Below are positions 11,191 to 60,640 of a stretch of DNA of 64,000 bases, one piece after another. The notes under the pieces were generated by a model. The model ran no database searches. It saw nothing but the letters and a program-made list of their open reading frames with translations, and was not told the origin of the DNA. The translations under genes and the position numbers were made by a program. The stretch comes from Hydrangea macrophylla (taxonomy: Eukaryota; Streptophyta; Magnoliopsida; Cornales; Hydrangeaceae), in the NCBI GenBank assembly GCA_033977485.1, contig CM066985.1, forward strand, positions 73,889,045 to 73,953,044, in the 5' to 3' direction. Numbering within the stretch: position 1 is the stretch's first letter; the number at the start of each line of letters is the position of its first letter.

Positions 11191-13075
11191 TAAAAGAGAT
11201 GGAGACCTTCGTCTACTAAAAAATAGAGCATTGCAGTGGTATAGAGCCGTATTGGCTAAATTTAACTTAAATTCATATACAAGAAAGAGAAATTTCGCAG
11301 TGGTGTAAAATCGAACCAGCAGAAGGGACTGGCAGAGATTATGTCGGCTGGAGTGGGCCGGCTGAGTCAATGCATTTGGCTTATTATTTTTAATAATATT
11401 TTAAACAAATTCTCATAAAAAAAATTATAAAACAAAAATTAAATTAAGAAGCCCATCGGCAAAGGCTTTGCCGGCCGGCGGTTGGTCATTGCAAAGGGTC
11501 ATTTTTTTTAGTCTATAAATAATAATAAATAAATAAACCAAAGGGCAGCCTCTGTAGGGGCTGAGTCAGGAATTTGGTCAGGGGGGCCTAGGCTATACGG
11601 AGGATCGGGGGCAGTGCCCCGGGGCAATTTTTTTGGAGTTTATTTACATATAATTGACGATTTTTTTACGGTCTACTTGTATGCAATTGGCGATTTTTTT
11701 AAGGATATACTTATAATACGAGTCTATTTGGTGGCACGTAAATATTGTATGTTGTTTTTCAAAATTCTAAGGGGGGGCCTGTTTCTAAAATGCATAAAAT
11801 TCTCACACTAAAAGTACAATTTTTGAAATTCTAGGGGCTTTTGCTTTTGAGTTGTATATACATGTATATCAATGTAAATGTAGTTGATGTTACTAAATTG
11901 GGCCTTGGACCCCTTTGTGGGGCCTAAACATAAGTTGAGGGGGGACTTAAACGTAAAATACTAAAAAATATTAGGGTAAAATTTTAATTTTCAAAATCTA
12001 AGGGGGGGGGGGGGGGGGCATGGGCCTCCCTTGGTTCCATGCTACCTTGGCCACTGCCCAAAATAGGACCAGGTCTAGTCGAAGTCCAATTTTTTATTTG
12101 GTTCTTGTGTGATCCAGAGATAAGCTGAATTTATATAAAACCTGTTTTAGGACAATTATTTGACTGAGCACGGACTACAATACAAGAAAAAAGCCCTTAC
12201 CAAAACTAAGTCCTCCCAAAATACTGGTCTTGGACTGAACCTGATTTTGTTTTGGGAGTTCCCAAACACTCCTTAAACTTATTTATGACCGTTATTAGAT
12301 AAACGAAGATAGATATATACTATATCTTTATATTCTATATACTATAGAGCAATTGACATATTTTCAGCCCTTAGATCTTAAGCAAGGCTGAGATGCTCCC
12401 AATTTGTTTACCCTAAATCCCCCTTCCTCCTCCTCCTCTTCTTCTTTCCTCTCTCTACCTCTCAACTCCATCACCTTTTATGATGGCCAAATAGGGGCAA
12501 AGGGATATCTTGATAAGTCGTGACTTAAATATTAAACACAAATTGAACGCTCAACGATTGCAGAGATTCGAAAGGAATAAAGAGTTGATTTTCTTAACAA
12601 TATTGGGCTTCTACCCTTCTCAAGAACTTCTGAAGTTATGGGTATGGAGGTTAAATTAGAGACATTGTCTCATTCTGTTGTTGTTAAAATCCGTAGCGAT
12701 AACCTATATTTAGTAGGGTATCAAATGAGAACCACTGGAAATTGGTTTAAGTTTGGAGAGTTTGGAGAGACGACTGTGTACATTTAATTTCTAATTCCAC
12801 ATTAATTGGAATGATAGGCAGCTATCGTGAATTGGAAAGGGATGTAGACAAAGCATGAGGAAAGCTCAAGTTGGGGTGGTGTATGCTTGTAAAAGCAGTT
12901 GATTGTCTTGATTATGAATAATAGAGTTCGAACTTATAGAAATGGCTCAGTTAGGGGCGGATCCAAGAACTGCCCATGAGAAGCTAACTTTTACATATTA
13001 CAAGACTTAAGTAGGCTTTTCATATTTGATGTTAAAAGATATATGAAGAAGTAGCGAAAGCACATAAGTATGCAC
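11191..13075. other. No gene recognised; G-rich run
   Basis: Low-information sequence. A run of 18 G sits at about 12001-12018, and several GGGG-rich patches lie between 11580 and 12020. I see no reading frame with a recognisable domain. Confidence 0.5.
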
Positions 13076-13084
13076 TTTTTACTA
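13076..13084. repeat. Left 9-bp target duplication of the MULE
   Basis: TTTTTACTA, identical to 23003-23011, immediately outside the GGG terminus. Confidence 0.9.
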
Positions 13085-13715
13085 GGGCCAGTCAGCCATA
13101 CCACCCTAAAACCAATACAATACTACATAAAGCCCAAGGCCCAAATATTTAACTCAATAACCCCTTCCCCAACCAAAATGACAAAACTGACCTAATTTTC
13201 TAATAAACCGAAAATACCCTCTCCTCCTACAGCAGAGCTGACGACGACGATACAGTTCAAGCTTCCATTCAAAATTCCTGTCAAATACGATAATCGAAAT
13301 TGACGATTCTTCGTGTGATTTGAGGACGAAACATTGATCAGACGCAGAAATTCTCCAGAAAAACACAATCACATTGTCAAATGGCGACGAAAAGTAAGTA
13401 GAAATTTTCATCCAACTTCTGTTAATGTTCATAGTTTTCAATTGAATCAAAGAATGCACACATATTTAATTTTAAAACCCTAAAAATTGACTTCGAAGCA
13501 AGACTCCATGAATATGAACTTCAAAAAAATGAAAATTAGGGTTTCTGACAGATAATACTAAAATTATCTGTTTCCCGAGGCACCTATGGTTTTTGTAGAT
13601 AATACAGCCTCACTTTTTTTTTGTATAAACTCAAAATAGTACATTTGATTTGTTGTATGTTGCTGATTTCATGTTAGGTTGTTTAATACATGTTGAAAAC
13701 CTAACCTACAAACAC

Positions 13716-14178
13716 AACAGATAATATTATCTGTTGTATACAACTTTTAAATAACATACCAAATCTCGTCGTTATATTTATTCTAATTAGCAACTAAAGC
13801 TTGTTTACAAAACAGATAATATTATCTGTTGTGCATAACACATTATTTGTTGTGAATCACAAATTCTCTTGTCCAACATATAATATTATATGTTTGATAA
13901 ACACAAATTCTCTTGAACAGCATAACAGATAATATTATCAAACAGATAATATTATCTGTTTATAACTTTTACACTACATGCCACAACAAATTAGCAACTA
14001 AAGCTTGTTCCAAACAGATATTATTATCTATTTTGAAACAGATAATATTATCTGCTGTGAGGTACAATAAGTACTTCAGACTGTTTTCAAACAGATAATA
14101 TTATCTGTTTTACAAAACAGATAACACTATTTGTTGTGCATCACAAATTCTCTTGTCCAACAGATAATATTATCTGTT
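13716..14178. repeat. Palindrome cluster in intron 1
   Basis: Exact copies of AACAGATAATATTATCTGTT start at 13716, 13811, 13941, 14090 and 14159. Variants start at 13875, 14013, 14037 and 14116, and a weaker one at 14323. The copy at 13875 is AACATATAATATTATATGTT, changed on both arms so that it is still a perfect palindrome. Several copies are preceded by TAGCAACTAAAGCTTGTT or by ACTTCAGACTGTTTTCAA. Confidence 0.95.
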
Positions 14179-14376
14179 TTGAATTATAGAACTTTACATA
14201 TAACTTTACAGATAACATTGTCGTTATATTGCTTTACATCTTGCACATTATAGATAACTTTATTTATTCTTCAAAGTTTGTTTTTTCTAGTAATTTGTTA
14301 ACAAATTTTACCTGTTGAGCAAAACAGATAACTTTATCTGTAAATTAAGCTTATCTTAATTGCATGATTTTAACAG

Positions 14377-15092
14377 GTGTTGCAAAAAAACCAACAAATA
14401 AGAAGAACAATAAATCAAAAGTAGACAGAAAGGCAGGGAAGAGCTATGCCAAACAATTTCGTTCTAGTTTGCAGCCTATGCAAACCCTAATGGAAGGGTT
14501 AGAGATCCATAAAAGGCATCATAAGTACCTCCAGAAAACTCCATTTTGGCTACTGATAAATGCTTTTCTAACCAACACGGTAGCGAATTGCAGCTGCAGG
14601 AAATCAGACACAGAAGTAGCTGAACTAATTCGCACATACAATTCTGCATACAAGGCATTTCAGGTTGGAGGGAAAAATATAATGATAAAGGAGGAAGATA
14701 TTGCTGTAATATTTGGGATAAAGTCGGGGAGAGAAGAAATGGCACTTAAAGGGAAGAAAAAGCCAACATCAAGCTTCATGGATAGATGGTTTAATGATGG
14801 CACTACATTATCTACCCCAGTTATAAAATTGAAGATACATACAGCAATAAAGGGACGAACAAAAGAAGACATGGAAGATTTCACGAGGCTACTTTGCCTA
14901 TATTTGTTTGTGACCCTATTTTTCCCAACAACTGGATATCAAATTGGTTGGACATACATCAAATATGTTGAAGACCTAGATGATATGTGCAAATATGCAT
15001 GGTCAGAAGCAATTTGGGAACAACTAAGAACTTCAATTGCAGAAAACCATAAAGATCCAGACAAAGTTTCAGGATGTGTGGCTGCATTGCTA
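14377..15092 (+). CDS. Exon 2: N-terminal domain of the Ulp1-like protein
   Basis: 238 uninterrupted codons between TTTTAACAG and CTA|GTAAGT. The start is basic (KKPTNKKNNKSK). It is followed by a hydrophobic and aromatic helical domain with FWLLINAFL, EEDIAVIFGIKSG, RLLCLYLFVTLFFPTTGYQ and KYAWSEAIWEQL. This layout is typical of the domain ahead of Ulp1 modules in plant MULE-encoded and related host proteins. The ATG at 14364 lies in the intron: the ATG of exon 1 joins in frame and is the better start. Homology is judged from pattern only. Confidence 0.65.
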
Positions 15093-15105
15093 GTAAGTTG
15101 AATGA

Positions 15106-15125
15106 AACAGATAATATTATCTGTG
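15106..15125. repeat. Palindrome copy in intron 2
   Basis: AACAGATAATATTATCTGTG, one base from the exact 20-mer, 13 bp after the exon 2 splice donor. Confidence 0.9.
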
Positions 15126-15429
15126 AGCTATATTTTATATGCAATGATTAATTTATAGGTTAACAAATAATGTTTATGCAGTATTGGTTGTGCGAGAAGA
15201 CAACAATATTAAAACCAATGAAGAAACAAGAATGCACCAGATTTGAAAATGGGATCTATCAGAACTAAAAAAGATTCTTGGTGATAGAGGGATCAGAAAT
15301 TTGGAAGCACATGAGGTATAATCAACGACGTTGAATCAAATATAAAAGAAATAAATAATATAAGGAAAAATTAACTGCATTACAAATTCTCTATTGCTTG
15401 ACAGAGATTATTCAAGTATGCATCACTAA

Positions 15430-15791
15430 TAATATTATCTGTTGGATAACATAACTCTTTTGTGAACAGATAACATTATCTGTTTTACATTATAGATGAA
15501 TAAATCTGTTCTAATTAGAAACTAAGGCTTGTTTACAAAACAGATAATATTATCTGTTGGGCAACATAACTGTTTTGTGAAACAGATAATATTATATGTT
15601 TAACATTATAGATGAAAAAATCTGTTCTAATTAGAAACTAATGCTTGTTTACAAAACAGATAATATTATCTGTTGGGCAACATAACTCTTTTGTGAAACA
15701 GATAATATTATCTGTTTTACATTATAGATGAAAAAAATATGTTCTAATTAAAAACTAAGGCTTGTTTACAAAACAGATAATATTATCTGTT
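15430..15791. repeat. 116-bp tandem array with palindromes in intron 3
   Basis: Each unit holds two palindromes. One series starts at 15465, 15581 and 15697, the other at 15539, 15655 and 15772, giving a period of 116-117 bp. Exact 20-mers are at 15539, 15655, 15697 and 15772. The units also share ACATTATAGATGAAAAAA and CTAAGGCTTGTTTACAAA. The array ends about 40 bp before the exon 4 acceptor. Confidence 0.9.
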
Positions 15792-15831
15792 GTAAATATA
15801 CAATAACACTCTTATTCTGTCAACTATGCAG

Positions 15832-16913
15832 GTATGTGGTCAAGCACTTGGAATGATAACCAAGGAAAAGGAAATGCTCATCTATGAAGAAGACGAAGAA
15901 GACGAAAATAATGATGAAAACATTGATGAACAAGGAGAGGATGAAGATAGGGAAGAAGAAGAAGAAGAAGAAGAAGAAGAAGAAGAAGAAGAATATGAGG
16001 AACAAGAAGAAAAAGAAGAAGATGAACAAGAACAAGAAGAAGAAGAAGAAGAAGAAGAAGAACAAGAAGATGAGGATGATAAAGAAGGAAAAGCAAAAGA
16101 GGAAGCATGTGAAGAAGAAGAAGAAGAAGGAGAACAAGAAGAAGAACAAAAAGATGAGGATGATGAAGAACAAAAAGAAAAAAATGAAGCAACTGAAGAA
16201 GAAGAACAAGAAGAACAAGAACAAGAAGATGGTTATGATGATTATAATAATGATGATGATAATGACAATGATGATGATGATGATAATGATTATCACAATG
16301 GAAATCAAAAAGAAATAATGGTTCAGGATGAAGAAGAACAAGAGTCACAAGGACATCAAGAAGATGATGACAAATGTGTGTACAAGCAGTGGCTCGAACA
16401 CTATAACAATGATGGCCAATATGACATAAACAAGGGAGAAGAAACAGAAAATGAGACAAATAATGAGCAACAACTACAGTTAAGTGAATCTGCGCACCTT
16501 GAAGAGGACAAGAGCAAACAGCCGGAAGATGAACAACAGATAAACTTGACACTCTCACAAGAAAGAAGTAACTTTAAAATCTCATCAGCTGAATCCGTGG
16601 AGTTCGACATGGAAAATTTCAATAATTTGTGCAATGTAATGATAGATGACATTGAAATAGATAGTAGCCTGGAAGAGAAGAGGTTGAAGGACATAAATGC
16701 TGAGCATAAAGAGACAATTACAGAACTAATGAATGAAAGAGAGAAACTGGTAGAGAAGTTCATGTATCTTGAAAAAGAAAACAACAAGTAAACAATATCA
16801 ATTCTTGAAAAGTCCATCAGAATACATTACATGGAGGACGAGATGACTGAAAAGGACAACGAAATTGAAGGAATGAAGAAACATATTTAGCACCTTGAGA
16901 GCATAATCAATAG
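15832..16913 (+). CDS. Exon 4: acidic low-complexity tract and coiled coil
   Basis: The frame opens VCGQALGMITKEKEM and enters about 130 residues that are almost all Glu, Asp, Lys, Gln and Asn, encoded by GAA/GAT trinucleotide runs (about 15890-16320). After that comes a heptad-like helix (EKRLKDINAEHKETITEL). The frame is open to the TAA at 16789 and would continue through a TAG at 16888 to the predicted donor at 16913. The donor lies at the edge of a repeat module also found in intron 1. The long leucine- and phenylalanine-rich frames on the other strand are shadows of the trinucleotide run. Confidence 0.6.
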
Positions 16914-17086
16914 GTACAATAAGTTCTTCAGACTGTTTTCAAACAGATATTATTATCTGTTTTGAAACAGATATTATTATCTGTTTTGAGGTACAGTAAG
17001 TACTTCAGACTGTTTTCATACAGATAATATTATCTGTTGAAAAACAAATAATATTATCTGTTGAGAAACAGATAAGATTATCTGCT
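16914..17086. repeat. Palindrome cluster in intron 4
   Basis: Variants of the 20-mer start at 16942, 16966, 17019, 17043 and 17067. The intron begins GTACAATAAGTTCTTCAGAC, nearly the same as a module in intron 1 (about 14062) and as another copy further into this intron (about 16991). The predicted splice donor is therefore part of the dispersed module. Confidence 0.85.
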
Positions 17087-17153
17087 GTACATTATATATA
17101 ATATATGTCTGTTCTAACTAGCAACTGAGGCACTTTTCATGTCCCCTAAACAG

Positions 17154-17813
17154 CTACTTGTCCTTGAACATTAATCTAGAGATAGAGAAGAATAAAAATG
17201 AAGAATGTGTTCAGAAGGAGGCACTGAAAGGAACTGAAACAGACATCACAGAGACGGAATATGTGCAAGTTTTGGAGGAGTAAGTCCAGAAATACAAGAG
17301 AACCCAACAAGATCAGGCCAAAAAATATGATCAGCACATCAAGGCAAGAGATAGAAAACTTGAAGAACAGAGTCAACTGATTACTAGGCTTGTCTATGAG
17401 AAACAGACTCTGATAAAACAGATACAGGACCTCAAGGATCAACAAACGCCAGAAAGGGCAAGCAAAGAAGAGATAAAGGAAGATGAACAAGTAAAAACAA
17501 GGTCAATGGTAAGGAATATCAGGAACAAACAAAGAAAAGAGAACAAGGACCCATTGTATGACTATGGTGATAAAAAAGGAAAGGGCAAGCAACAAATAGA
17601 TGGAGGAATAAAAAGGAAAAGGCAAACAGCCGGAGAAGAAGCAGATAAAGGACTTGAGAAGCTGATGATTGATATCGACGAATACACGGAAAAAAAGCCA
17701 AGGAAAATTAAGAAAGCAAAGTCGAAGAGAGGAAAAACAAATCCGATGTTGAAATACATGAAGATAAAAGACAGATAAAAGATGAAGCACATAATGGAAT
17801 TCGAAAATAACGA
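17154..17813 (+). pseudogene. Exon 5: coiled coil and basic region
   Basis: It follows CCCCTAAACAG and joins exon 4 in phase. The translation is helical and charged (QAKKYDQHIKARDRKLEEQ, LVYEKQTLIKQIQDLKD), then strongly basic with KKGKGKQQ, KRKRQ and KKPRKIKKAKSKRGK, which could act as a nuclear localisation signal (inference). In-frame stops at 17281-17283 and 17776-17778 interrupt it. The donor at CGA|GTAAGT joins exon 6 in phase. Confidence 0.6.
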
Positions 17814-17900
17814 GTAAGTACGATTGCAATTCAAGTACAAAATTAATTTCCATACATTCATTTCCATCTAAACTAACAACATACTTGTTGAATTTGTTAG

Positions 17901-19109
17901 CAATAAGGCAGTGATCTGGAGTAGATCAAAATCTTCTGAATACATCAGCCTTCAGGACGTGTTGGAACTGCAAGATGGTGATCAAGTGACCAATAATGTA
18001 AAATACTATCTGTCCTATTCAAACCAAATTATGTAACAGATAATATTATTTGTTAGACAGATAACATTATCTGTCCATTATCTTGCTTATCAAATGGACA
18101 GATAATATTATCTGTAATAATTTATTACTTCATGGATACAAATACTAAAATGCCAATAACGTCTGACTCTAGGTAATTGATGTGTATGCTGAAATATCGA
18201 TGCACGATCAAGAAAACCTAACACCATTGGATGCTACAAAGAAAGATAAACACTTCTTCTTCACTAGCATGGGCATGGTAAGCAACAAATACCGTTTTGA
18301 AAAGCAATGAACACATATATCTTATAAGCATAATATATCATTCAAGTGCATGCTATAACATTATATGTTTCTGTTATTATCTGTTTCTGTTGCTCCTTTG
18401 CAAAACAGACTCTGATCACAGAAAACGTACAAAAATTGAGGGAGTCAATGTTCGATAAATACATTGGACAAGATACTGCTGACTATAGATATTTGCACTT
18501 TCCAATCAATTCAAGTGGCAGATCATTATATTTAAATCATTGGACTTTGTTAGTCTATGATCAAGAAGAAGAAATATGGAGGTCTTACAACTCCAGAAAG
18601 CCAAGGACAGGCCAAGATCAGTATCTCAGGGATGCTATTACGATGGTATAAAATCTTCACATATATGAAACTCCACAACAAATACTTGACATATTACTTT
18701 CAGACTTAACTCACTAAATCACCTGTTTTATGTACAGAAAGATCACTACATCAAGGTTCTAAAGCAAAAGCAAGAACAAATGGGTGTTAAAGTGACAATC
18801 AATGATGATGCTCCACTATTTGAAATGGAGAAAACACCTCAACAAATGAAAACAAGGTACGTATGAACTTACAACCTATTATATCACATTGAGTCAGCAA
18901 CAGATAATATTATCTGTTGTGAACAATAGAGAATATATTATAAACTAAAGTACTCACATATAATTTAACATTGACAAACGACTCTTGTTTGTAGTGTGGA
19001 TTGTGGGATAACTGTTTGCTACCTCATGAAAAGAACTCATGGACCGAGAAGGCGGCCTTACAAAGGAGGGCAGCGAATCTGGCAGAAAGTATATAGATTA
19101 CGGTATTGA
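17901..19109 (+). CDS. Exons 6-10: uninterrupted C48 (Ulp1-like) peptidase module
   Basis: Five exons (17901-17997, 18173-18277, 18409-18645, 18738-18856, 18995-19109) join in frame without a stop and end at TGA 19107-19109. The module shows the conserved entry VIDVYAEI. The catalytic His is in HWTLLVYD (codon 18538-18540) and the nucleophile Cys in VDCGITVCYLMK (codon 19002-19004). The third triad position reads Asn in RSYNSR (codon 18589-18591), where the family usually has Asp; GAC to AAC would explain it. Upstream exons are broken, so this part has outlasted the rest or has had less time to decay. Confidence 0.75.
18035..18116. repeat. Palindrome cluster in intron 6
   Basis: Three near-copies at about 18035, 18056 and 18097, each one to three bases from the 20-mer. 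The intron is 175 bp, so the palindromes make up about a third of it. Confidence 0.85.
18899..18918. repeat. Exact palindrome in intron 9
   Basis: AACAGATAATATTATCTGTT, inside the short intron between the exons carrying the catalytic His and the catalytic Cys. Confidence 0.95.
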
Positions 19110-19370
19110 ATACCATTTTTTGTATAGATGTATAGAGATAGTCTGATTTGGGGATATGAACAGATAGATGTTTATACATAGATGTATACATTATAGCACA
19201 GAATATCATTTTTGTATACATTATAGCACAGAAGAACTCATTGGTTGTTTTATTTTTAATGGGATTTATGCGACTGAAAAGAAGAAAGTTCATAGTTTAT
19301 AAATGATATGAATAGAAAGCTGGTTTTGGCTTATGTTCTATGACTCTCCTGTGCATGAATATTAGTATAC

Positions 19371-19735
19371 AAGTTATTTAATATTTGAATTGCAAACTGA
19401 TAATATTATCTATATTATCTGCAACAGATAATATCTGTTGCAGAAACAGTTTCAAATCAAACATTGCAGAAACATATAATATTATCTGTTGTGTACAAGT
19501 TTTACAAAACAAACCATTACAAAGCCCATATTATCATAGCAAAGAATACTAGTATGCAAGTTATTTAATATTTGAATTGCAAACAAATAATATTATCTGC
19601 AACAGATAATATTATCTGTTGCAGAAACAGTTTCAAATCAAACATTGCAGAAACAGATAATATTATCTGTTGTGTACAAGTTTTACAAAACAAACCATTA
19701 CAAAACCCATATTATCATATCAAAGAATACTACAT
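19371..19735. repeat. 188-bp tandem duplication with palindromes between the two genes
   Basis: The segment beginning AAGTTATTTAATATTTGAAT at 19371 repeats at 19559, and both copies end near ATTATCATA.CAAAGAATAC. Exact 20-mers are at 19601 and 19652. The left copy has decayed counterparts, including one at 19471. The block lies between the convergent 3' ends of the Ulp1-like gene and the transposase. Confidence 0.9.
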
Positions 19736-20896
19736 ACATATAGAACATATTAACCAAAAAAATAGTAGACACTTTATTCAGAAGTCAAAGCCATGACACA
19801 TTCAGACACATAAAATCCAAATCTGTAATTCAACAGATAATAGGTATATATTGAATTACAAAGCTTCATTGCATGTCTTTCTGTTGTGTTTGGCATATTT
19901 GCCACACCTACCACACCTCACACTCCTAAAACTCTCAACCCTCGAAGGAATTCTCTTTTTTCTTGGCCTTCCGGGTTGCTTTCTTAACAAGGGAGGGCGA
20001 ACAACCATATCTTTAACGCTGGCATTGGGTTTGGTGACCGTTGGAACACCAAAAATAGACTTGCTATATGCCTCAGAGAAACTGCTCACATGGTACCATC
20101 TATCCACAAACGTATTCAAGTCATTCCCGCTACTTTGAATAACAACACAAGCATGACTACACAGAAAACCCATTTAATTGCCACTGGAAGCAAGAGCATG
20201 TCAAACTATGGATATCAACCAACACAGATGGCATACACTAAACCTCAAACAAATCATCATAACACTTAATCACTTTCCACGTCCGACCCTCATTTAAAGA
20301 TGTATGCAATCTCTTCTCCATTTCAGGGCAGATAACAAAACTCTATTTCTTGCACAAATCTCTCCGATAGGACATTTGCTTCATAATTTGAACCCTAATC
20401 TTATCAACCATCTCAGTTATAGGCATGTGACGAGCTACTGCAATTTGAGAGTTAAAAGACTTAGCAGCATTAGAAGAAATCTCACCATAACGCTTTCCTT
20501 TGAAGTAAGCATGACACCACTTATCAAGAGGAAGATCATGCAAAAAGTTATCAATTTTTTTGCCACCCTCATGTCTCAACTGATCCATGTGAGGACAAAA
20601 AGCTGCTTCAGTCGGAGCATAAGCACACCTACGGAACAATGCCACAATCCTCTCCCTAAAATCCTTGTCCACCCCACTATATTTCTCCCGCAAATTTTTC
20701 TCCAAGTGAATCATACAAAAAGCATGTGGAGATGATGGAAAAATGCTAGAAACAGCATGAACAAGACCAGGATTGCAATCTGAGACAAACGTCACAATAC
20801 GATCATTCGAAAAAACTTCACGCAATTGGCCACAAAACCACATCCAATTGTCAAGATTCTCGGAATCAACAACACCAAATGCAACAGGAAACAAAC

Positions 20897-21041
20897 CTGT
20901 ATCAGCATTGAATAGCTACTTAATACAAAAACACAAATATAACAAAAATATACCACAATCCATAATTTAAAAACCAGTAGACACAAACAGATAATGTTAT
21001 CTGTTATGTATAATAGATAATATTATCTGTTATGTACTCAC
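20897..21041 (-). other. Intron of the transposase gene
   Basis: On the minus strand the exon ends GGTAACCAAG and the intron starts GTGAGTAC. The acceptor is CTGATACAG. Joining the exons gives an uninterrupted GKDGNQGLFPVAFG, as expected in this family. The intron contains two palindrome variants (20986 and 21012). Confidence 0.8.
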
Positions 21042-21250
21042 CTTGGTTACCATCCTTTCCAGTTGCAGCCAACAAGTTACCCTTGTATCTACCCTTTAAA
21101 AATGTGCCATCCAAGAATAACAAGGGACGACAAAAATTGAATCCATATATGCACCCGTAAAAAGAAACAAACAATCTCTTAAAATGCCCACTACCATGAT
21201 CATATTCAAACTCAATACAGCTGCCCGTGTTATTCTTCAACGCCTCATCG

Positions 21251-21438
21251 GTATAACATCGAAGAAGATCAAAAGACAACAAATCATCTCCATAAAGTTC
21301 TCTCCTAGCCTTTTCAACACCCAACCACGCATGGTGGTAGCTAGGTATACCATCGAAGAAGATCAAAAGACAACAAATCATCTCCATAAAGTTCTCTCCT
21401 AGCCTTTTCAACACCCAACCACGCATGGTGGTAGCTAA
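21251..21438. repeat. 94-bp tandem duplication inside the transposase
   Basis: The sequence from GTATAACATCGAAGAAGATC to GGTGGTAGCTA repeats with a 94-bp offset and almost no change. Since 94 is not a multiple of three, the transposase frame is shifted and the peptide YHHAWLGVEKARRELYGDD is encoded twice. The near identity of the copies suggests a late event. Confidence 0.9.
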
Positions 21439-22297
21439 TATCAAGTCCATATTTATCTTTAAAATCCCGAACAACTTCAAATGGACGGGTCAAAGGCTTT
21501 GACCGAACATCATCTACAACAACGCTACCAACTAAATCAGAGCTCATCCTTGGATTTCGTGAAGTCCGAATAGAAGCCCCACAAGTGTGCTCTTTATTGA
21601 ACTTCTTTATATAAAGAAAACCATTCGAACGAACAACTGATGCATGTATCCGCCACAAATAGCCCCTAGAATCCTTGAATTTACATTCAGCCGTAATCCT
21701 TCCCTTCTCATTCTTTGTGTACTTGAATTAAAAACCAAGTTCAATAGCATATTTACAAAGCACTGTACAAAATTCAGCACTACCGCCTTCAAAACACTGT
21801 CCAACACCAACTACTCCATTAGCCCAAGAAGCAGATAATAAGACTTTTTCCTTGTGAGATATATACGAAGTTAGTAAGTCTCTTTCACTACTGACTACTA
21901 ACTAGTCAACATACCCATGCTATATGCTTCATGGACACTACTAGACCGATCCTCAACAAAACTAACACAACCACTCTTCTCAATAACAACAATATCACCA
22001 CGACCACCACAAACACCATTAACCAATAAAATCATGTTTTGGAAATCATCTTCATTCTCTAAAATACAGTTTGAATGCCCACTAATACAATACTCAAAAG
22101 AAACATTGTTAGGTGTCAAGTTACTCCATCTACCACAAACAAAATCCACCAAATTGTGGTAACAAAACTCGTTTGAAACCTTCACAACAGCTGTATAACC
22201 AACATGCTTCACCAACAATAGAACTGAATTGTCCATTATAATCTACCAAAAAAAAGAAACAGATTCAGAAATAGGGAATTATATAAAAACTGTTTCA

Positions 22298-22475
22298 AAC
22301 AGATAATATTATCTGTTTTAATACTATCTGCTTCAGTTCGTCTAAACCACATATGCATTACATAATAATTATAACAAACAGATAATATTATCTGTTTTAA
22401 TACTATCTGCTTCAGTTTGTCTAAAACACATATGCATTACATAATAATTATAACAAACAGATAATATTATCTGTT
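22298..22475. repeat. 79-bp tandem array with three exact palindromes, transposase leader
   Basis: Exact 20-mers at 22298, 22377 and 22456, spaced exactly 79 bp. Each is followed by TTAATACTATCTGCTTCAGT and CATATGCATTACATA. The array lies just upstream (in minus-strand terms) of the transposase start at 22236, in a probable leader or leader intron. Confidence 0.95.
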
Positions 22476-22740
22476 TTAATACTATCTGCTTCAGTTCGTC
22501 TAAAACACATATGCATTACATAGTAATTATAACCAAAGAGATCATCAGAATCGGCTTCAGATAGTATTACAGATATTCAAAACCCTACGAATAAAAAAAA
22601 ACAAGCTGAAATCGTACCTGTATTACAATTCTATAAGAAAATGATGAAGAAAAGCGAGATCTGAAGACTAATTATGCAACTCGAATATCTGAAAATCGAA
22701 AAACGAAATCTGGAGATCTTCAGTTTTACTGCACTCGAAT

Positions 22741-22746
22741 CAGAGA

Positions 22747-22796
<50 letters not shown>
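22741..22796. repeat. (GA)n microsatellite near the MULE right end
   Basis: About 55 bp of GAGAGA, about 200 bp inside the element. Pyrimidine-rich on the transposase strand, so it may lie in the promoter or 5' leader of that gene. Confidence 0.9.
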
Positions 22797-22797
<1 letters not shown>

Positions 22798-23002
22798 GAA
22801 ATATGAAATCTGAACAGAGGCAAAAGAGATAGATGTAGAAATTTGATCGTAAATACAACAATGGGCAATTCTGTCCAAAAAAAGTGAAAAGGGGTTTAGT
22901 TCAAAACCGAAAAACGCGCGATGGGCTTTATGTTGTACAGTAATAGACCTTGGTTTTTGACTAATATGAATATAATTTTAGGGATTTATCTCTAAATTTC
23001 CC

Positions 23003-23011
23003 TTTTTACTA
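23003..23011. repeat. Right 9-bp target duplication of the MULE
   Basis: TTTTTACTA, identical to 13076-13084, immediately outside the CCC terminus. Confidence 0.9.
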
Positions 23012-36860: not shown

Positions 36861-37491
36861 TTACTTAGATGGTACCAAGTTTAGAATGTATGCAGCTGTC
36901 TCTAATGCGTGTCCCCAAAAAGAAATTGGTAAATCTGAATAACTCATCACAGATCTTACCATGTCCATAAGAGTCCTCTTGTTTCTTTCTGCAACACCAT
37001 TCTGCTGAGGCATACGGGGTGCAGACAACTGGGATGTAATCCTTTGCTCCAATAAGTATTCCCTAAACTCTCCCAAGAGGTACTCTCCACTACGATCAGA
37101 TCGTAGTGTCTTGATACATTTACCTAGACGCTTTTCTATTTCAGCCTTGAAGTCTTTGAATTTCTCAAAACATTCAGACTTACGCCGCATCAAATAAATG
37201 TACCCATACCTTGAGTAATCATCAATAAAAGTGACAAAAGTACTCAAATTCCCTTCTTGCTTGGACAGTCATAGGACCACACAAATCAGAGTGAACCAGT
37301 TCCAACAGCTCTTTTGCTCTATAACCCTTAGCCGAGAACGGCCTCTTGGTCATTTTACCTTCCAAGCAGGATTCACAGACTGGAAGTGCCTCCACTTCCA
37401 ATGAACCTAACGGGCCATTTTGAACCAGTCTTTGAATCTTTTTCAAATTAATATAACCAAGGCATAAGTGCCAAAGATGCGTTTGGTTCAT
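36861..37491 (-). pseudogene. Copia integrase (zinc-binding part and catalytic core)
   Basis: The zinc-binding part (37491-37222) has THLWHLCLGYINLKKI and ALPVCESCLEGKMTKRPF. The core (37247-36861) has FVTFIDDYSRYGYIYLM, LRSDRSGEYL and PQQNGVAERNKRTLMD, which keep the Asp, Asp and Glu of the catalytic triad. The two pieces are in different frames, overlapping near 37230. Confidence 0.9.
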
Positions 37492-38779
37492 TCTCGAAGG
37501 TTTTTTTTTATCTTAAATGGTAAACGATTTGTGTTATTCAATTCATTAAGTTGCAGTATAGGAGAGACATGATTTATAATATAAAGATCATCCACCAATT
37601 GACCAGAGCAAATAAAACATTTATTTTCTTTAATAACTACTATTTTATTAAAATGAATTGAATATCCATTCTTTACTAAACTAGAAACTGAAACTAAATT
37701 CCTTCTTATAGAAGGTACAAAAAGGTAATTTCTTAATATTAAAATCCTATCTCTACCAAAACTAAGATGTAGATCTCCTACTGCAACTGCTGCTACTCTC
37801 GTAGCATTTCCCACATATAGATAAACATCTTCATCACTGAGCTGCCTGGTTCCCTGGAACCCCTGCAAAGAATTGCATACATGATCAGTTGCTCCCGTAT
37901 CTATACACCAGGTACCGGTAGATCGGACCGCTAAACACGATCCAACAACTAGTAAATGAGATTTACCTTGATTGTTCTGTCTGGCGAGATAAATTGGACA
38001 TTGCTTCTTCTAGTGTCCTGGCTGCTTGCAAACAAAACATTTACCTTTAGGCTTTCCCGGTTGTCCTCTTGGTCTTTGGATTGGCAGAGGGCCCGCGACC
38101 TTCTTTTAAGCCTTTTAATTTTCTTCTTGCCTTTCGGCTTTGAAGTAGAATCTTTCTCAAACACAAGAGCACTCCCTGACTTTCTGTTGAGACCCTCAGC
38201 TGCCTAGAGTTCTTTAAGCAGTTCCGCCAAAGTATATTTAAATTTATTCATGTTGTAATTGAGGCAGAATTGCTTAAAAGACTTTGGCAGTGATTGGAGT
38301 ACGATATCGACCTGGGTTTCCCCATCGATTTCAGCTCCAAGGATCTCTAGTTCATTAAGAAGAGATATCATCTTAAGAACATGATCCCTAACAGGCATTC
38401 CCTCAGCCATGGTTGTGTTCATCAAGTTTTTCATGGCAACCTGCCTAGTAGCACAACTTTGATCCCCGAACATCTCTTAGAGGCTCTCCATCATGTCATA
38501 GGCACTGGTCATTGATTGATGCTGATGTTGCAGAACATTCAACATGGATGCCAAAATGTAACACCGCGCCATCTCATCAGCCTTGACCTATTTCTTTTGA
38601 GCCTGGGTTTCCTCATCGGTTGCCCCCTCACCAGGTTGCTCAGGACATTCTTGAGTAAGCACAAGCTTGTACTCTTCAGTAGTTAACCCAATATCCAAAT
38701 TCCTTTTCCAGTCTATATAGTTTGGTCCAGTAAGTTTGTTTTCTTTAAGTATAATAGCAAGTGGATTGAAAATATCCAT
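37488..38779 (-). pseudogene. Copia gag and aspartic protease
   Basis: Gag starts MDIFNPLAIILKENKLTGPN and continues with AMKNLMNTTMAEGMPVRDHV and LLNELEILGAEIDGETQVD (38473-38204). A zinc knuckle CFVCKQPGH..KKQC lies near 38040-37999 and has a stop inside it. Protease follows with CIDTGATDHVCNS (active-site triplet DTG at 37893-37901) and DLHLSFGRDRILILRN. Several in-frame stops interrupt gag. Gag packages the RNA and protease cuts the polyprotein. Confidence 0.85.
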
Positions 38780-59331: not shown

Positions 59332-60310
59332 TCATAGTGCTTCAGACAACAGCTTATCCCATTCTCTTAGATTTTCGTAGATCATCCTCTCAATGATCCC
59401 CTTGAGGATCTTGTTGGTTGATTCGGCTTGTCCATTAGTCTGTGCATAGTATGGAGTAGAATTAAGAATTCTAAACCTTCTACTTTCTATGAAGGCTGTG
59501 GTCTCTGTTCCTATAAACACAGACCCTTGATTGGCCGTAATGGTCTCAGGGAGGCCGAATCGGTGTATGATATGCTCTTCAATAAATTTAATGACTGTAG
59601 CTTGAGTCAGCGCCCTACAGGGTATGGCTTTAGCCCATTTAGTGAAATAGTTCATAGCCACTATAATGAAACAATGTTTCCCGATATGGTAGGAGTACTT
59701 TGCCAATTAGGTCTATGGCCCATCCCCTGAAGGGCCACAGTTTTATGATTGGTTGAACCTCTTTGGGTGTCACTCGTTAAATATGGCCATGCTTTTGACA
59801 AGCCTGGAACCCTTTAGTGTAGCTGATGCAATCCTTCAGCATGCCTGGCCAGTAATAATTTTCTCTCCGTAACAGCCATTTAATCTTGGTACCGGCCTGG
59901 TGAGGTCCACAAATTTCTTTGTGGACTTCGACCATTACTTTTATAGCTTGTTTCTTCCCTAGGCACTTGACAATTACATCAACACTAATGGGTTTTTTGA
60001 ACAGTTCCCCATCCAGTACCACAAATTGGACTGCAAACAGCCTTACCCTTCGTTCTACCCTGATGTTTGGGTGTTTTAAGTATTCAATGATGGGAATTCT
60101 CCAATCATCATCATCCATTAGGACCGAATTGGTTGTGGTATACCAGCCTCTCTTTGCCACTGATGGCAATGATTGGACTTGGACTGTGGTTGCTCGTTCT
60201 TCCAAACCCTTTCTAGCAGACGAGGCCGATCCTATTTTTGCCAGATTATCAGCCTCGGTATTTGTTAACCTAGGGATATAACTCATACTTATGTCATCAG
60301 ACGACTCCAT
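59332..60310 (-). pseudogene. Integrase zinc-binding part and catalytic core, Tat-type gypsy
   Basis: The zinc-binding part lies in the left end of the 60310-59777 frame: VMVEVHKEICGPHQAGTK, KWLLRRENYYWPGMLKDC and CQKHGH. The core (59706-59332) reads FIIVAMNYFTKWAKAIPC, IIHRFGLPETITANQGSVF and AQTNGQAESTNKILK. The Glu is present, but both Asp positions (usually DYFTKW and TDQGSVF) read Asn, as G-to-A change would give. The protein could not be active as written. Confidence 0.85.
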
Positions 60311-60640
60311 AAGCTAGGTGGCCATAGAGTGAAATGGGCAGAGTTCCTAGCTCTTTATCTGGAATTCTTCTGATATTTGTCCAATAACCAACCTTGAGTC
60401 CCCTTTGATATGCACGGACGATGCCCCCATCTCAAGGAGCATCTCAAGTCCGATGATAAGTGCTTCGTATTCGGACTGAATATTAGTGCACTTAAAATTG
60501 AGCCGAAATGACATCTTTGTTTTCTTTTATTTGGGCGATATAATGATCACGCCTACCCCAGCACCTCCTGTATTCTTAAACCCATTAAAGATCAATGTCC
60601 ATGGAACTAAGGATGTGTTTAATACCTTAGGTGCTTATAA
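60230..60640 (-). pseudogene. Second, archaeal-type RNase H of the Tat element
   Basis: The minus strand reads GGAGVGVIIISP, then SEYEALIIGLEMLLEMGAS, VHIKGDSRLVIGQI and, after stops, SYIPRLTNTEADNLAKIGS. The order G-x-GxGxxxxSP, QSEYEAL, GDSxLVI and NxEADxLAK is that of the extra RNase H in Tat elements. Stops at SP* and KS* break it. Confidence 0.8.

Follow-up and report, generated by a model that had tools for sequence, protein, structure and literature searches.

The 64,000-bp stretch of Hydrangea macrophylla DNA analysed here (GCA_033977485.1, contig CM066985.1, positions 73,889,045 to 73,953,044 of the forward strand; in the following called the window) contains a Mutator-like element (MULE) of about 9.9 kb at positions 13085–23001, and the non-coding parts of this element carry many copies of a single 20-bp palindromic word, AACAGATAATATTATCTGTT. 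The element was delimited by its target-site duplication (TSD) CTTTTTACTA, present at 13075–13084 on the left and at 23002–23011 on the right, and by comparison of its two ends, which are alike but degenerate (local score 45 versus a mean of 23.6 and a maximum of 38 in 300 shuffles). The left boundary is additionally backed by other copies, with a diversity of 0.65–0.73 left of 13085 and of 0.04–0.13 inside. The element thus combines the transposase domain and the TSD of about 9–11 bp of a MULE with the degenerate or missing terminal inverted repeats (TIRs) by which VANDAL or non-TIR MULEs are recognised.

The transposase gene lies on the minus strand (19856–22236) and consists of two exons with frame breaks. 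Its product matches the Pfam families MULE (PF10551, E 2.8e-11) and PF00872 (E 2.7e-6), both above cut-off, while a match to DBD_Tnp_Mut (E 6.2e-5) falls just under it; in a protein search with a transposase exon, 5 of 30 candidates reached E 1e-5, including proteins from Prunus, Camellia and Actinidia. A 94-bp tandem duplication within the transposase coding region (21250–21437, 98% match) is possibly one cause of the broken frame. The second gene, for which 10 exons were modelled by hand, is located on the plus strand (13381–19109) and encodes, in this order, a DUF1985-like domain (exon 2, 14377–15092), an acidic stretch, a coiled-coil-like stretch judged by eye, and a Ulp1 domain (exons 6–10, 17901–19109; Peptidase_C48, PF02902, E 1.6e-5, above cut-off). 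A weakly matched DUF1985 together with a Ulp1 domain places the gene with the KIU/VANC type. The NHW, YNS and DCG motifs of the Ulp1 part were read from the translation. They are also present in the Camellia protein P0006, whose parts follow one another in the same order and which is 44% identical over 164 aa of the DUF1985 exon. A GAA/GAT-rich stretch (15952–16290) codes for an almost pure acidic run, and an acidic run is found in P0006 as well. Two Camellia proteins matched the Ulp1 part at E 0.001 among 189 candidates, the DUF1985 exon alone found none of 83 candidates at E 0.001, and sequence searches of the PDB gave no convincing match. An AlphaFold2 model of the DUF1985 exon from a two-row alignment reached a mean pLDDT of 39.7 and a pTM of 0.34.

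Fifteen exact copies of AACAGATAATATTATCTGTT are present in the window (at 13716, 13811, 13941, 14090, 14159, 15539, 15655, 15697, 15772, 18899, 19601, 19652, 22298, 22377 and 22456), each where an earlier model-made note on this DNA, in the following the sequence-only reading, had placed it. With up to three mismatches 37 places were found, compared to a mean of 0.00 and a largest value of 0 in 100 shuffles, and with up to four mismatches 38 places, all inside the element and none in the rest of the window, which bears out the statement of that reading that no copy lies elsewhere in the window. It had also seen the symmetry extended to 22–24 bp. Indeed, among the exact copies perfect symmetry spans 20 bp in six, 22 bp in seven, 24 bp in one (13716) and 30 bp in one further copy (19601).

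The usual form of the word is an abutted inverted pair, and lone halves are few. In the window's element and 15 further regions described below, an inverted partner accompanies 121 of 143 exact ACAGATAAT halves, in 113 cases abutting without a gap. As each half contains AGATAA, which agrees with the consensus WGATAR of GATA factors, the dyads could be pairs of inverted sites for a host GATA-type factor acting as an enhancer throughout the element, and the dyads of intron 1 and of the transposase leader would suit such a role. For this, however, single sites would suffice, yet just 22 of the 143 halves stand without an inverted partner; a related family at 37% identity (see below) has a different top word; and the 8-bp half ACAGATAA, which occurs 34 times on the plus strand of the element, is not found in the remaining 54 kb of the window, nor is the half TTATCTGT. 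A GATA-type enhancer is thus quite unlikely.

Exon models were drawn by hand from splice signals. Although exons make up 5,533 of the 9,919 bp, none of the 38 dyads touches one, in agreement with the earlier claim that no copy falls in a predicted exon. Stop codons alone do not bar the word from exons, because read directly it has a stop in one of three frames only. All dyads are found in introns, in the spacer between the genes, or in the intron or leader of the transposase gene. Intron 1 of the plus-strand gene (13394–14376) holds 11 (13716, 13811, 13875, 13924, 13941, 14013, 14037, 14090, 14116, 14159 and 14323) and in addition a split dyad near 13548–13573. Intron 2 contains one (15106–15125), intron 3 seven in a tandem array of 116 bp × 3.1 (15424–15791), intron 4 five in an array of 77 bp × 2 akin to intron 1 (16942–17086), intron 6 three (18035–18116) and intron 9 a single exact one (18899–18918). 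Five dyads, plus a compressed copy near 19423, lie in the intergenic spacer, which includes an array of 181 bp × 2 (19395–19671), two in the transposase intron (20986–21031), and three exact ones in the transposase leader in an array of 79 bp × 3.1 (22298–22475). The terminal 463 bp (left) and 526 bp (right) of the element are free of dyads.

The 2.22-Gb assembly contains 3,871 exact copies of the word and none of its reversed control; no exact copy of the word was found in viral contigs. The first 50 listed sites, covered by 15 regions of contig C1 below 27.7 Mb and thus a positional, not a random, draw from the 3,871, represent 13 loci: two copies of the window's element (L013 and the interrupted L017+L018), four loci of a repeat type B (L007, L008, L010+L011, L014) and seven of a type C (L005, L006, L009, L012, L015, L016, L019), with 22, 15 and 13 sites, respectively. 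Types B and C were each joined by DNA similarity, L006 being the weakest placement. The left end of the element is matched by L014 and L008. L014 possesses both ends of the element (the left identified by BLAST, the right by eye), a 9-bp TSD TATATAAGT and no open reading frame longer than 151 aa; these ends and the TSD together with the dyads are as expected if one trans-acting factor serves derivatives. Several type C loci contain arrays of about 205 bp with pairs of dyads 26 bp apart. No region of type B or C matched any of four probes of the element's proteins at E 1e-4. One type B locus includes two 3.0-kb stretches that are 99% identical (L010 4870–7879, L011 531–3523) and that may be repeats belonging to a recent insertion.

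For the sequence-only reading, a word common across the genome outside this element family, or missing altogether from related MULE copies, would have counted against its idea. On the first point, checked for a part of the sites, the word is common genome-wide, but the first 50 sites all lie in the element or in two families with its or similar ends. On the second point, a search with the DUF1985 exon scored 150 of 959 candidates, and all of the 30 best related loci, one of them the window and one L013, carry the word, with 10–22 dyads each in about 3.7 kb (488 in total, 213 exact). None of these 488 lies inside the DUF1985 exon. When exons were assigned by alignment, 32 of 32 dyads in the near-complete L013 and 23 of 23 in L017+L018 were likewise outside them. 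Among the 150 scored candidates there are 33 other close, near-full-length DUF1985 exons (at least 92% identity), 23 of which are without a stop.

Could the element's own transposase bind the dyads, for synapsis or autoregulation? A MULE transposase is encoded, the DBD_Tnp_Mut match misses the cut-off only just, and the non-autonomous L014 retains both ends and dyads. Nevertheless no dyads are found near the ends, neither within the terminal 463 and 526 bp of the window's element nor in roughly the outermost 300 bp of L014 and L005 (the ends of L005 being defined by similarity), and a distribution over introns and spacer is unlike that of subterminal transposase sites. We regard transposase binding as unlikely.

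Much of the local abundance goes back to duplication. The sequence-only reading has to be corrected in that the copies are not independent: many of them belong to the four tandem arrays mentioned above. When nine segments were compared after masking of the palindrome, common flank sequence linked introns 1, 3 and 4, and the arrays of spacer and leader showed internal repetition, whereas no match at E 0.01 joined intron 2, 6 or 9 or the transposase intron to another segment. Without masking, some copies of intron 1 and of the spacer are alike over 46 bp, 26 of which are flank. Local duplication thus adds copies of the word, but copies are also present in surroundings with no other recognisable similarity. 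The tandem arrays and a constraint between copies that is unclear would both be compatible with neutral debris, a short palindrome spread by slippage and local duplication and merely tolerated outside coding DNA. Against this, near-identical words stand in seven contexts without flank similarity at E 0.01, the arrays of types B and C are built on other units, and 20 of the 23 perfect palindromes of at least 14 bp in the element are this one word, which makes a neutral origin very unlikely.

Variation between copies was analysed for the 30 loci and for the dyads of the sampled regions. The diversity of dyad A:T sites in the 30 loci (0.043) is lower than that of positions within 15 bp (0.062; 14 of 4000 permutations as low) and lower than that of all other non-coding DNA (0 of 4000), while 333 of 4000 permutations were as low when all positions within 60 bp were taken. 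At positions 6–8 and 13–15 of the word no mismatch is found in the window's 38 copies, and counts are low in 159 other dyads. Much of the excess of mismatches at the other positions is C>T or G>A, which at the four G:C positions accounts for 64 of 93 changes in the 159 dyads, as expected, indirectly, if the CAG/CTG sites are methylated. Relative to L013, the window shows differences at 28 of 658 dyad sites and at 219 of 3,464 sites of other non-coding DNA; relative to L017+L018 the values are 72 of 516 and 548 of 3,026.

These changes also bear on the idea that the palindrome functions at the RNA level, in a hairpin or as a source of small RNAs, and gives a signal for silencing or splicing. 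The predicted fold of the word has −6.5 kcal/mol, and with flanks −11.6 (13706–13745) and −19.4 (19591–19630) kcal/mol are reached; the C>T/G>A bias, too, is what methylation would leave. But in the 15 regions (up to 5 mismatches) 274 changes are one-sided, and where both arms changed, 12 cases keep the pair and 12 lose it. Furthermore, the regions of types B and C lack a match to the four protein probes and still carry the word in arrays, so splicing cannot be its common role, and no match was obtained for the window in Rfam at gathering scores. An RNA-level function is highly improbable, and among the options of the sequence-only reading the intron hairpin is weakened accordingly.

Four more distant relatives (L050–L053), read in part, were searched for top words. 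An earlier enrichment for the words of L050–L052 was circular, the words having been chosen from the same sequences, and a null of 60 partly overlapping chunks is the fairer comparison. In L053 (68% identity) the half-site remains the most frequent word, and one 22-bp perfect palindrome is altered on both arms. L052 (37%) has the top 9-mer TGTGAAATT with 21 occurrences versus a null maximum of 12, some of them as inverted pairs and others in a single orientation. L050 and L052 lack the word of the window, their best matches having 8 and 7 mismatches, and L051 contains one copy with 4 mismatches. The four relatives hence comprise one modified dyad, one clearly different word, one borderline case and one within the null. 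As a separate observation, L050 contains a 30-bp perfect palindrome, TTTATGTCACTTTTTAAAAAGTGACATAAA, at 270–299 upstream of the DUF1985 exon, with more copies of GTGACATAAA nearby. Many DUF1985 exons at 35–41% identity fall into groups of equal score on separate contigs, a hint of several families with recent activity.

A comparable arrangement has been described in the sections of the literature covered here. VANC21, like other VANC proteins a bearer of DUF1985, causes loss of methylation and binds the motif YAGTATTAY, which VANDAL21 carries in the introns of its genes VANC21 and VANB21 as well as in its intergenic and terminal non-coding DNA (Hosaka and colleagues, PMC5735166). According to the same parts of that paper, the VANC6 motifs AGTTGTCC/AGTTGTAC of VANDAL6 differ from those of VANC21, the motifs lie in fast-changing tandem repeats, and AT9TSD1, a transposable element unrelated to VANDAL, also holds VANC6 motifs, which is a precedent for the dyad in type C. 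Non-coding motif regions are reported to be targeted by RNA-directed methylation as well (PMC10398659, 2023), and Ulp1-carrying VANC genes (KIU) are said to recognise motifs in KIU-carrying VANDALs (PMC13317346, a 2026 review). The window's element resembles VANDAL21 and VANDAL6, as presented in PMC5735166, in having one short motif in the introns, the spacer and the terminal or upstream non-coding DNA of an element coding for DUF1985, which is only weakly matched in the window, again in changing tandem repeats. In contrast, the VANC21 motif is not palindromic, and the window's protein adds a Ulp1 domain and a long acidic stretch.

The element also fits the KIU-carrying kind of VANDAL. It is a MULE without clear TIRs whose Ulp1-type domain runs opposite to the transposase, as outlined for KI-MULE and KIU elements in the passages covered (PMC2528002, PMC6117577, PMC13317346), and the KI-MULE ULP domain is itself described there as reverse-oriented (PMC2528002). 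Unlike KIU, which the review presents as one of three coding genes (PMC13317346), only two were recognised here, a third not having been specifically searched for. Short repeats through spacers, gene parts and ends, including a large tandem repeat, are further known from the SIRC repeats of a VANDAL3 element; these, however, are direct repeats found by CRISPR-type software, about 57% of them palindrome-free and most others with 3-bp arms, as far as the available part of that paper goes (PMC10342631). The opinion of the sequence-only reading that no such case is known was hence too narrow, VANDAL21 being an example of the general phenomenon, whereas its literal claim about long palindromes is uncontradicted in the literature covered. 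The main text of PMC5735166, in the part covered, mentions no palindromes, inversion or dimers; palindromic VANC targets may nonetheless have been published, Sasaki 2022 being the key paper on eudicot VANC proteins. The principle of VANC motifs is known, and the difference here lies in the tight 20-bp palindromic dyad and in one word being common to three repeat families in the sample.

Taken with this likeness, the palindrome is probably the site by which a VANC-type anti-silencing system recognises its own element, and 'protein-binding site', the first option of the sequence-only reading, appears apt. The DUF1985-Ulp1 protein of the element family would bind the dyad across introns, spacer and leader, probably as a dimer, as the length and the palindromy of the word suggest. 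Binding would lift silencing of the element itself and of non-autonomous relatives with the same word, and the word would be kept to non-coding DNA and be multiplied there by tandem duplications. The inner TAATATTAT is one mismatch away from YAGTATTAY, a closeness equalled by 2.5% of 20,000 random palindromes of like composition, and may serve as a lead only.

Several observations weigh against the VANC-type explanation. Binding, dimerisation, demethylation and the identity of the reading protein are steps that we infer. With one frameshift and four in-frame stops, the DUF1985-Ulp1 gene is broken in the window copy and is a pseudogene there. The DUF1985 (PF09331) matches at the corresponding place are all under cut-off (window E 0.0018, L013 0.0035, P0006 0.12), and none was found in protein P0007. 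When exon 3 is added, a plant mobile domain (PMD, 1.9e-4) beats DUF1985 (0.0038), both under cut-off. The ends of type C resemble those of MULEs when compared by eye, yet a clean TSD was looked for in these loci and none was found, and with 13 of the 50 sampled sites in type C the word is not limited to one family. The rival PMD match and the uncertain relationship of type C slightly lower our confidence in the VANC-type explanation. The motifs known for VANC21 and VANC6 have 8–9 bp, the nine bases of VANC21 standing in one orientation, unlike the 20-bp tight inverted pairs found here (PMC5735166, as far as covered). Diversity in the 30 loci is 0.041 at 16–60 bp from the dyads, in comparison to which the 0.043 of the dyad A:T sites is not lower, and 0.076 beyond; the G:C sites of the dyads are no less diverse than elsewhere. 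The evidence on constraint is mixed, and constraint on the dyads is not clearly shown. A helical period among 28 successive, non-independent dyad gaps was not significant (Rayleigh p about 0.09–0.21). Among the distant relatives, the top word AAATTCACA of L050 (41% identity) reaches 13, which is borderline, and that of L051 (47%) reaches 9, within the null, with inverted AACAGAGAAA copies visible.

A more general scheme is tentative and on balance doubtful: the DUF1985-Ulp1 proteins of this genome might read dyads as dimers, each element family having its own dyad as a code for self and non-self, and several non-autonomous families whose repeat units are unrelated might independently have filled up with one and the same dyad and so share in the protection of a single autonomous family. 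From a dyad one would expect binding by a dimer and a half-site that can be measured. In the literature covered, tests of VANC anti-silencing are confined to Arabidopsis. A clean palindromic target with 3,871 exact copies, together with the 33 other close exons, would offer a second, physically simpler system, and related families in one genome would allow a co-change of protein and target to be asked for. If protein and word co-evolve, AGTGTGAAATTTCACACT, TGTGAANTTCACA and AATAGATAATATTATCTATT should each be confined to the matching DUF1985 family. If the VANC-type explanation is true, the dyad would be a long, specific address for the targeted removal of DNA methylation.

Outside the element, retrotransposon-like remnants are present on the minus strand of the window, with matches to Pol_BBD (E 9.1e-16) at 37491–38009 and to Integrase_H2C2 (E 4.5e-8) at 59780–60313.

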